From assembly GCA_020721225.1 (NCBI GenBank), contig DYNE01000017.1, forward strand, positions 1-45,127: a stretch of DNA of 45,127 nucleotides, written 5' to 3'. The notes beneath the pieces are model-generated. The model was not told where the DNA came from and made no database searches. It saw only the letters and a list, made by a program, of their open reading frames with translations. A program made the position numbers and the translations under genes. The DNA is from Pelodictyon luteolum (lineage in GTDB: Bacteria; Bacteroidota; Chlorobiia; Chlorobiales; Chlorobiaceae). Positions 27,290 to 32,213 of the stretch are shown one piece after another (the stretch's first letter is position 1; every line of letters starts with the position of its first letter).

Positions 27290-27818
27290 AACCAACCGGC
27301 CGCTGAACTTCCACGATCTTGCGGCAGGGCGGTGCAGCATCCGCAGTTTCGAGAAAAACCGGCCTCTTCCTCGCGAAGTCATGCAGCGCATCCTCGACGC
27401 CGGAAGGCTCGCCCCTTCGGGAAAAAACCTTCAGCCATGGACGTTCATCGTGGTCAGCTCCCCGGAAATGCTCGCAAAAATATACCCCTGTTATTCCCGC
27501 GACTGGATACAGAGCGCGCCGCACCTGCTCATCGTAAAAGGGACGCGCAGCGGAGCATGGCAACGGAAAAAAGACGGCTATACATCGCTTGAAACCGACC
27601 TTGCCATCGCCATGGATCACATGATCCTTGCCGCGGCATATGAAAGCGTCGGCAGCTGCTGGATCGCAGCCTTCGACCGCGACATCCTCTACGGCGCGCT
27701 CGGCCTCACCGACGACGAGGAGATCTTCGCCTTCACGCCCATAGGCTATCCGGCTCCGGATGCCGTAACGGTACCTAAAACAAGAAAACCGCTCGACGAG
27801 GTGGCGGTGTTCCTGTAA
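27273..27818 (+). CDS. Nitroreductase family protein
   Basis: An FMN-dependent oxidoreductase of the nitroreductase superfamily, 181 aa. The N-terminal [37 protein letters not shown] carries the FMN phosphate-binding Arg-Ser and the APSxxNxQPW signature. The C-terminal part has [15 protein letters not shown] and [16 protein letters not shown], the GYP segment being standard. The physiological substrate cannot be told; relatives reduce nitroaromatics, flavins or quinones. It overlaps the preceding hypothetical gene by 17 bp and converges on the tandem hydrolase gene. Confidence 0.92.
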
Positions 27819-27899
27819 ACAATGCGATATATTTTGACTACCTGACAGAAAAAAAGGAAGGGATTAATTCACGGAATGAACATGGTACTATTAATTTTC

Positions 27900-29543
27900 T
27901 CATATCTTCTGAAGCATCCATAAAAGCATAATCGCCATGGATGCCCCACTCACCACGGCTATCCATGGGGGGTGAATTGCAGGGATTAAAACGCAAAAGA
28001 CAATAATCATTATTATAAAAAGAATAAATAGAATAAAGAAAGCTAACCGAGATAAAACTGATAGCCACCACGGATTTTTTAACGGCTTATCAAAACAATT
28101 ACGATTTCTTTGAAGCTCTTCTTCGTCACAAAGCATGTATTCTACTAATTGTCTTCTGCTTTTTGATTTTAATGCCGAACCATGCCCTCCAGAAATAAAA
28201 CAGTTTTGTATAGATTTTTCAACAGAAACAAAGCCTTTATAACCACCTGTTCCAAAATTCTTCATAAAAGGGAAAGGAATTTCATGCAATGCTTTGCATA
28301 AAAAACCAACCGGAACATCCTTATTGGCACAAACATTCCTTAAATACTTCACCCTCCCTTTATACGGAAATTCATTCCATTTAACATTCTGATTCACTAC
28401 CGATCCGGCAAAAAACACTCTTTCAACCTTAATAAAATCATTTTTTTCAACGGCCTGCTGAAAAACCAGGGTGCCATTACTATGGGCAGCAACAAATACT
28501 TCTGCATCAGGAGAAAGTGAAACCTCCTGAACATACTTGTCAACAAAGACACGGACTGCTCGCTTCTGCTGATGAGGAAGCAGAAATTGAAGGAGATTAA
28601 AATACCCATATTGGACAGGAATAACATCAATATTTCTATCTTTTTTTTCGATCTCATACTCTAATGCATGATGCCACTCAGCAAAATCTCGAATCCCATG
28701 TATAAGAAAAATAATTTTTTCTCTCGGCTTAAGGAACCTATTTGTATTTTGTTCACAATCGCCCCTGATAAATGAATTCAAAACTTGCTCATATCCATCA
28801 ACTCCATTTTTCATTTTACAAAACGATTTATGATCAGCACCTCTAATTACATCAATAACAGAAACATCAAACCTGTTAATATCAATGGCATCATCTTCTG
28901 ATACAACCGCATCTTGATCACCATATATCTGAACAATTTCCGGCCCTTTTATCTTTCCATAACAATAAGTTTTAATCCATTTCATACGAAGCGATGTAAC
29001 CCAAACCGAACCGATTTGCATACTCATAATAAGCTTAGCAACACGAAATACAGGCACAATTAATGCAAAAAAACTGAACATACTATTATATGGAACAAAC
29101 CCCCTATTTGTTCCGGCAAGCAAAACCATCCTATTTAACAAATCAACCCAAGCATATTCTTTTTCTTTGGCAAGCAAAACTGTTCTTCGGGCAAGTAAAG
29201 CCCCAATACTGTGCCCCATTATAAATATTCTTGAATATCTGTTCTTTTGGCATGCTTTATTTATACTCAAAGCAAGTTGTGCGGCGATATCTTCAGGGTT
29301 GGCATTCGATAAGTAACTATTCGAATAGCTAAATGGAAACAGATCGGCTCCATATAAAATATTTTCAGATCTTGAATCACAAACAAGAGCATTCAGCAAA
29401 TCATAAAAATCGATAGGTCTTAAAGTCCATCCTGGAATAAAAACAAGTAACGTAGCATATTTATTATTACTATTAATAAATAATGATCCTGATTTTAAAC
29501 AGGACTCAAACACAGATATCTTAACCTCATTAACTTTTTCCAT
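27900..29543 (-). CDS. Tandem alpha/beta hydrolase with C-terminal membrane pair
   Basis: A 547-residue protein that I read as two complete alpha/beta-hydrolase domains in one chain. Domain 1 (about 25-260): oxyanion strand LLVFIPGW, elbow GHSIG with Ser112, candidate Asp211 in YGDQDAVV, His238 in GADHKSF. Domain 2 (about 275-470): IFLIHGIRDFAEW, elbow AHSNG with Ser355, candidate Asp409 in NKDVPVG, His454 in SGGHGSALK. Two hydrophobic helices (about 496-520 and 526-544) close the protein, so it is probably tail-anchored to the inner membrane. No signal peptide and no Shine-Dalgarno are seen. The gene is markedly AT-rich compared with its neighbours, which suggests horizontal transfer. Substrate (lipid, ester or peptide) is unknown. 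Confidence 0.75.
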   Translation of the reverse strand: MEKVNEVKISVFESCLKSGSLFINSNNKYATLLVFIPGWTLRPIDFYDLLNALVCDSRSENILYGADLFPFSYSNSYLSNANPEDIAAQLALSINKACQKNRYSRIFIMGHSIGALLARRTVLLAKEKEYAWVDLLNRMVLLAGTNRGFVPYNSMFSFFALIVPVFRVAKLIMSMQIGSVWVTSLRMKWIKTYCYGKIKGPEIVQIYGDQDAVVSEDDAIDINRFDVSVIDVIRGADHKSFCKMKNGVDGYEQVLNSFIRGDCEQNTNRFLKPREKIIFLIHGIRDFAEWHHALEYEIEKKDRNIDVIPVQYGYFNLLQFLLPHQQKRAVRVFVDKYVQEVSLSPDAEVFVAAHSNGTLVFQQAVEKNDFIKVERVFFAGSVVNQNVKWNEFPYKGRVKYLRNVCANKDVPVGFLCKALHEIPFPFMKNFGTGGYKGFVSVEKSIQNCFISGGHGSALKSKSRRQLVEYMLCDEEELQRNRNCFDKPLKNPWWLSVLSRLAFFILFILFIIMIIVFCVLIPAIHPPWIAVVSGASMAIMLLWMLQKI

Positions 29544-29977
29544 AATATTCTGTTATTAAAGTAGAATTCATGTAAACCAGAAATTATAATCAGCGACAAA
29601 CTCTCACAAAAAAATCATTCCATAACTCGTTCTGAACCGAGATTCAGGATTATGACACTTCTTTCTTGATTTATATGGATCAGTTGCCGCTCTGAATCGT
29701 TTACTTCGGAATCAATTCTTGAAGTACGCTTATTCCGTTACATTATTTCAAAATGAGCTATTGCCTGCATCATATCCGCGAAAAGCGGATTTGCGGCCTC
29801 CAGCAGCTTGCCTCCGTTCATGATGGGCTCTCTGAGAATCACACTCGCATGCCTGACTCCGAGATCTTCGGGAATCCTGAAAAGGATGAAACGATCCTGA
29901 AACGATCGTAATAACCTATCCACTCATTATCGCGCATTGTACCTGAATGTTGAATTGGGTTTGCTTTCGTAACAGCC
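29544..29977. other. AT-rich spacer with gene remnant
   Basis: About 435 bp between the tandem hydrolase and the DUF3298 lipoprotein genes, both on the minus strand. The part 29544-29735 holds no frame I can support and is AT-rich. The part 29738-29937 is a small broken coding sequence, listed separately. No terminator was recognised. Confidence 0.5.
29738..29937 (-). pseudogene. Small gene broken by an 11-bp partial duplication
   Basis: A frame starting at the ATG at 29937 reads MRDNEWIGYYDRF and then shifts. Directly after it the 10-mer TGAAACGATC (plus-strand sense) occurs twice, at 29887-29896 and 29898-29907, a spacing of 11 bp. Removing one 11-bp unit joins the start to FILFRIPEDLGVRHASVILREPIMNGG and onward to the stop at 29738, giving an uninterrupted 62-residue protein. 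As it stands, only the 61-codon frame from 29923 is open. I do not recognise the family. The copies differ by one flanking base, so the duplication is not perfectly clean. Confidence 0.45.
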
Positions 29978-31022: not shown

Positions 31023-32213
31023 ATGAGAAACATCGTTTTCACCGGAAAAGGCGGCGTAGGCAAAACCTCGATCGCCGCTGCAACGGCTGTGAAAGCCGCT
31101 TCGATGGGCTACAAGACCCTTGTCATATCCACCGATCCCGCGCACAGCCTCGGCGACTCCTTCGATATCGAGCTTGGCCCCTCACCTGTAAAAATCGCCA
31201 AAAACCTCTTTGGACAGGAGGTCAGCGTCTATGGCGATCTCAATCTCAACTGGGAGATCGTTCGCGAACACTTCGCCCACCTCATGGAAGTACAGGGCAT
31301 TCAGGGCATCTACGTCGAAGAGATGGGCGTGCTCCCCGGCATGGAGGAGCTCTTCTCGCTCTCCTACATCAAGCGCTACAACGAATCTCAGGAGTACGAC
31401 CTGCTCGTGGTTGACTGCCCCCCTACCGGAGAAACCCTGCGCCTGCTCTCCCTGCCCGAAACCTTCGGCTGGATGCTCAAGCTGATGCGCAATCTCGAAA
31501 AATATGTGGTCAAGCCCGTTATCCGCCCGCTCTCGAAGCGGGTGGGAAAGCTCCACGACCTGGTGCCTGACACCGACGTTTACGACCAGGTCGATCACCT
31601 CTTCTCATCCATAGAGGGGATCATCGAACTGCTCTCCGACTCGTCGAAAACCACCGTCCGCCTGGTCATGAACCCCGAAAAAATGGTGATCAAGGAGTCC
31701 ATGCGCGCGCTCACCTACCTGAACCTCTACGGCATCACGGTCGATCAGGTTATCATCAACCGGGTCTTCATGGACGAAGTGGACGGCCAGTACATGAAAG
31801 AGTGGAAAGAGATCCAGCACAGATACATCGACCAGATCGAAACATCCTTCGCCCCGGTGCCCATCACGAAAGTGCCGCTCTTCCGGCGCGAGGTGCTCGG
31901 TCTCGATATGCTGAAGCAGGTCGGCGAGGTCGTTTACGGCGACAAGAATCCTCTCGACATCTTCTACCATGAAGAGCATGTCGATATCAAAAAGGTTTCG
32001 GACGGCCACTACGTCATGAAACTCCGCCTGCCTTTCGTCTTCGACAACAAAATGGAAGCGAACGTGGTGCAGATCGGCGACTCGCTCACCGTGCGCATCG
32101 GCAACTATCAGAAAGGGGTGGTGCTGCCGCTCTTTCTGGCCGGCATGCGGGTTGCTGAAGCCGGCTACGAGGAGAAGTGGCTGAAAATCGATTTCCGGAA
32201 AAAAAAGGGCTGA
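31023..32213 (+). CDS. ArsA/Get3-family ATPase with HSP20-like C-terminal domain
   Basis: A soluble SIMIBI-class ATPase of 396 residues. The deviant Walker A is GKGGVGKTS at residues 7-15, with switch [14 protein letters not shown] and the [17 protein letters not shown] block typical of ArsA/Get3. It is a single ATPase half, not the duplicated form of plasmid ArsA, so it must dimerise. The last 75 residues (about 320-394, [16 protein letters not shown] to EEKWLKIDF) look like the ArsA HSP20-like beta-sandwich domain found in green sulfur bacteria and relatives. No arsenic genes (arsB/C/D) adjoin, so arsenite export is unlikely; a role in targeting or chaperoning membrane or chlorosome proteins is inference. 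Confidence 0.9.

Follow-up and report, generated by a model that had tools for sequence, protein, structure and literature searches.

We found that a single gene on the minus strand of the window (the whole stretch of 45,127 nucleotides that was analysed) encodes two alpha/beta-hydrolase domains, each with its own complete catalytic triad, followed by a C-terminal pair of membrane helices, and that this architecture recurs in a widespread and apparently undescribed bacterial family. The gene (27900..29543; all features of the protein given below lie on the same strand) is an open reading frame of 547 aa, P0001, whose architecture is shared by about 40 homologues, and the six catalytic residues named in the original prediction are all present in it. 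The first domain, D1, covers about residues 28-262 (28758..29462) and holds the nucleophile Ser112 within GHSIG (codon 29208..29210), the acid Asp211 (28911..28913) and the base His238 (28830..28832). The second domain, D2, covers residues 272-476 (28116..28730) with Ser355 within HSNGT (28479..28481), Asp409 (28317..28319) and His454 (28182..28184), its motif series reading HGIR...HSNGT...D...GGHG. Helices 501-523 and 526-546 form the C-terminal transmembrane hairpin (27906..28043, from hydropathy and the AlphaFold2 model), while no hydrophobic segment is seen at the N-terminus in the sequence or its hydropathy plot. None of the curated models searched (Pfam, NCBIfam, PADLOC) names this architecture. 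Part of the first half gives a borderline match to the alpha/beta-hydrolase superfamily (Pfam Hydrolase_4, 27.6 bits vs a cut-off of 27) and D1 matches are of the Hydrolase_4/Abhydrolase/DUF676 type; the second half has no significant Pfam match in P0001, and D2 has Pfam hydrolase matches in relatives. Searches of P0001 against NCBIfam returned nothing meaningful, and against PADLOC-DB 2.0.0 there were zero matches up to E 10.

The AlphaFold2 model, built on a 39-row alignment (mean pLDDT 86.6, pTM 0.89), predicts the canonical order of hydrolase elements in D1 and again in D2, and in neither half is the fold absent. D1 is modelled as strand 31-36, helix 43-55, strand 67-70, helix 83-100, strand 105-111, Ser112 and helix 113-127, continuing with strand 136-142, inserted helices, strand 202-208 ahead of Asp211, strand 228-233 ahead of His238 and helix 251-260. 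D2 follows with strand 276-281, helix 289-301, strand 305-310, helix 323-343, strand 348-354, Ser355 and helix 356-367, then strands 373-379, 398-406 (Asp409) and 445-450 (His454) and helix 460-471, after which come the two C-terminal helices. Both halves thus carry the marks of the superfamily, namely the Ser elbow, an Asp past strand 7 and a His past strand 8. Structural neighbours in the PDB are mostly lipases and esterases, for example monoacylglycerol lipases, with matches that cover mainly D1, and the structural and profile neighbours of D1 also include Streptomyces and Burkholderia-type lipases. The D2 profile finds pancreatic lipase related protein 2 as its best match (E 0.0068) and has weak matches to pancreatic, lysosomal and gastric lipases. 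A phmmer search with the P0001 sequence by itself yielded no solved relative. Because alpha/beta-hydrolase folds serve many substrates, these neighbours leave the substrate unfixed. D1 members weakly match Pfam PGAP1 (25/34) and Palm_thioest (5/34), as might be expected of a membrane enzyme of the palmitoyl-thioesterase or PGAP1 type that de-acylates or processes proteins and does not cleave lipids; in the members inspected, however, the matches fall mainly on the elbow region common to the superfamily, the predominance of lipases and esterases in the PDB speaks against such a role, and GPI anchors are, to our knowledge, not known in bacteria. We consider it very unlikely.

Conservation of the two active sites is close to complete. 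In an alignment of six members with 23-27% identity to the window protein, S112, D211, H238, S355, D409 and H454 are all invariant. The 39-row alignment keeps D211, H238, S355 and D409 without exception, the sole mismatch at S112 coming from L036, whose ORF starts within D1, and the sole departure at H454 being a gap in L041, a truncated ORF. The domain alignments, from which rows were left out that lack the domain, are incomplete or are hard to align, show the D1 triad invariant in 34/34 rows and the D2 triad in 36/36. Most members also have the C-terminal hydrophobic pair, where the strongest hydrophobic segments of the 39-member alignment are located. The alignments and the model thus bear out the prediction of two full catalytic sets and two C-terminal helices, and since both triads are invariant across phyla, both sites are probably in use.

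Regarding the origin of the two domains, a fusion of different hydrolases, as had been proposed on the grounds that they are not evident duplicates, is upheld over a recent duplication. When D1 and D2 of the window protein are compared by BLASTP, the elbow motif alone matches (E 0.058), and the profile-profile comparison (probability 84%, 88 columns) extends only from the oxyanion strand to the elbow; at the level of sequence the two domains thus appear merely remotely related. Furthermore, D2 exists without D1, in REC-D2-TM proteins on Klebsiella and Enterobacter plasmids, in a D2-SH3-PLD (phospholipase D) fusion, in proteins of 935-1215 aa from Ensifer, Singulisphaera and Rhizobium, and in proteins of planctomycetes. 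All 14 D2-only proteins inspected retain Ser and Asp, and 13 of them His, the remaining one having a gap at that column; a hydrophobic helix is present at or past the end of D2 in all except the Ensifer protein. With triad and helix kept in this way, D2-TM forms a module of its own, independent of D1, and its occurrence alone in other fusions marks the double hydrolase as a fusion of different hydrolases.

Two kinds of D2-only loci show a recurrent gene order. A three-gene operon is found on IncF plasmids of Klebsiella variicola (L009, 1771-6726) and Enterobacter hormaechei (L093, 1981-7155): its first gene encodes a protein of 1110-1191 aa, one end of which weakly resembles a GHKL ATPase in the Klebsiella copy, the second gene is small (REC in Klebsiella), and the third encodes the REC-D2-TM hydrolase. 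This operon is possibly a signal-triggered membrane hydrolase system; the literature on GHKL/REC-coupled effectors yielded nothing on the double-hydrolase family. In planctomycetes (L051, L053, L054, L055 and L056) a two-gene unit consists of a conserved first gene of about 337-365 aa (a 217-aa fragment in L053) and a second gene whose product combines an N-terminal domain of unknown kind with D2 and a membrane helix.

The original prediction knew of no described family with this arrangement, which needs qualification, as tandem hydrolases are known from AcvB/VirJ; a family combining a double triad with a membrane tail was not found, either among described systems or in the open-licence literature. 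AcvB is a solved tandem alpha/beta hydrolase, soluble and periplasmic, that hydrolyses the membrane lipid lysyl-phosphatidylglycerol, its N-terminal domain having shown no activity and the C-terminal domain alone being active (PMC13197417). Like the window protein it carries two alpha/beta-hydrolase folds in tandem on one chain, but it has no membrane helix where P0001 has its C-terminal hairpin, the periplasmic export signal expected of AcvB/VirJ has no counterpart in a hydrophobic segment at the P0001 N-terminus, and the inactive N-terminal domain of AcvB contrasts with a D1 triad that is complete and invariant. The VirJ family model is absent from the Pfam matches of P0001 up to E 10, a search in which the HMMER filters drop very weak matches, while the A1 profile reaches AcvB at E 0.89 only and the D1 profile at E 1.9e-4 over part of the domain. 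The top structural neighbour of the model is the Legionella phospholipase PlaB (6zth/6zti; Z 20.1, rmsd 3.2, 231 residues), to which D1 is the part that corresponds, at 15% identity and with a weak sequence match (E 0.012). PlaB is a membrane-associated phospholipase whose second part is a different, PlaB-specific C-terminal domain; the second half of the window protein is predicted to have hydrolase topology. Bacterial and mammalian lipases, including the monoacylglycerol lipases, resemble D1 in fold, in the order of the triad and in general chemistry, but have a single catalytic domain and no C-terminal membrane hairpin.

The gene was predicted to be horizontally acquired, and this is borne out by an empty site in a sister species (G295). 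The window matches G295 at 27600-27817 (88%) and at 29760-29951 (85%), and the gap between these flanks measures 36 bp in G295 vs 1,942 in the window. The insert (27819..29759, 1.94 kb, no strand) contains the double hydrolase as its sole gene and has a G+C content of 34.8%, compared to about 55.7% in the flanks; likewise, the gene itself was rightly called AT-rich (35% vs 55-56% in the 5 kb on either side). No convincing direct or inverted repeats were seen at the insert borders. Within the window's phylum a full-length copy is present in 3/296 genomes, that of the window included, the two further genomes having relatives that read as full-length double hydrolases. By tblastn we found relatives spanning both domains on one Nostoc plasmid and two Rhizobium plasmids, and a profile-based scan brought the double-domain relatives to about 40, distributed over Pseudomonadota, Actinomycetota, Bacteroidota, Planctomycetota, Cyanobacteriota and others. 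Single-protein scans of genome and viral contigs gave no relative where alignment-based scans did find some, and P0001 had no match in phage records. The distribution is patchy, with conjugative plasmids and one phage-like contig among the carriers, and in the tree the window protein sits on a very long branch with no clear sister. A solitary, mobile, AT-rich gene whose structural neighbours include the macrolide esterases EstX and EstT might suggest a detoxification esterase for a xenobiotic, such as a lactone or ester antibiotic, that spreads in the manner of resistance genes; yet a membrane hairpin and two separate active sites would be unexpected for such an enzyme and the neighbours examined included no recognisable resistance gene, which makes this a remote prospect in our view.

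Neighbour clustering revealed no universal partner gene, and most loci are without a conserved partner; the largest cluster consists of ABC transporters, presumably owing to their abundance. Patatin-like phospholipase genes occur near D1-D2 or D2-only genes at five loci, namely in Rhizobium (two), Ensifer, an Arenicellales and a Verrucomicrobiaceae. In L005 (1813-9680), L006 (1679-9548) and L007 (3557-8814) the patatin-like gene is directly followed by that of a large D2 protein (965-1215 aa), and on the two Rhizobium plasmids a patatin-like gene and a large D2 gene are followed by the double hydrolase. The D2-SH3-phospholipase D fusion (L050, 15977-17998) lies 4.3 kb downstream of a double-hydrolase gene. 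In an IMG/VR contig (L063, 6240-14642) the double hydrolase is oriented against its neighbours, with portal genes on one side and sigma-factor/terminase genes on the other, and is apparently cargo of a phage-like element.

Several of these settings recall defence. The Nostoc plasmid copy lies near an nSTAND1-WD40 gene, the Flavobacterium copy near a type I restriction-modification system, and in Bradyrhizobium D2 is found near a SAVED gene. Alpha/beta-hydrolase domains have been described as effectors in conflict systems, where their proposed action is on membrane lipids or alongside peptidases (PMC7159879, PMC8195603). P0001 could accordingly be pictured as a defence or conflict effector: upon a signal such as infection the anchored hydrolase would degrade the membrane lipids of its own cell and growth would stop, as with abortive-infection lipases. 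Besides the loci just named and the copy between portal and terminase genes, the mobile and patchy occurrence of the gene and the association of D2 and its membrane helix with signalling domains, as in the GHKL-like/REC operon, speak for this picture. On the other hand, P0001 fits no PADLOC model, and the described effectors come together with STAND, MoxR-vWA, caspase or death-like modules, whereas the double form is mostly solitary and without a fused sensor, coupling to REC or other domains being seen with D2 alone. PADLOC matches (E <= 1e-10) among the 148 near neighbours were scattered, mostly one neighbour per model in raw counts, and the Pfam matches were a mix of ordinary genes, most recognisable neighbours being unrelated genes. 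Matches to mad2 and mad3 among the neighbours hinted at a link to MADS, which was discarded for Flavobacterium, where the mad2 match is a type I methyltransferase. The proposed association with defence islands thus did not prove consistent over the neighbour clusters, the 148 neighbours and the Flavobacterium locus, and we regard a defence role as rather unlikely.

The reading we prefer, at about even confidence, is a cytoplasm-facing dual serine hydrolase that is anchored in the inner membrane and acts on membrane acyl lipids through an acyl-enzyme in each domain, perhaps in two successive steps. The C-terminal hairpin would anchor the protein, and given this hairpin and the lack of an N-terminal signal (hydropathy and model), both active sites would lie on the cytoplasmic side, close against the inner membrane. 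By the classical mechanism, each Ser would attack ester or thioester bonds and form an acyl-enzyme. Acyl lipids of the cell's own membrane would be the likeliest substrates, and the two sites could work in succession, for example as phospholipase and then lysophospholipase. Membrane lipids are the likeliest substrate in view of the anchor, a minority of neighbour genes (patatin, PLD) and a generic similarity to lipases. As the gene is a stand-alone accessory that moves horizontally, its role is probably in conditional lipid remodelling or damage rather than in core metabolism. More speculatively, and in our judgement quite improbable, the two-site anchored chain would strip phospholipids stepwise as a mobile, self-contained and inducible defence effector, with D2-TM as a plug-in module shared with the REC-coupled and PLD-fused forms. 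Two strictly conserved sites in one anchored, mobile chain found in many phyla point to a coupled two-step membrane reaction, and since D2 with its membrane helix links the family to signal-coupled plasmid systems, one assigned substrate would inform the annotation of several unknown architectures.

The gene remnant next to the double hydrolase (29738..29923, minus strand) had been taken as a further mark of the acquired patch. The remnant is real, but it comprises both ends of an internally deleted resident alpha/beta esterase and lies outside the system: the esterase is intact in G056 (308 codons), and G295, which lacks the double hydrolase, has a similarly internally deleted esterase at the same place, so that the remnant is a separate resident gene. 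By sequence comparison the insertion appears joined at its 3' end. A 9-bp repeat, GATCGTTTC, at 29888-29896 and 29899-29907 coincides with the deletion junction and may reflect the deletion. Further along the window, an ArsA-type ATPase gene (31023-32213) has a second stretch of about 76% identity in the same genome (G000:C12:19503-20020).
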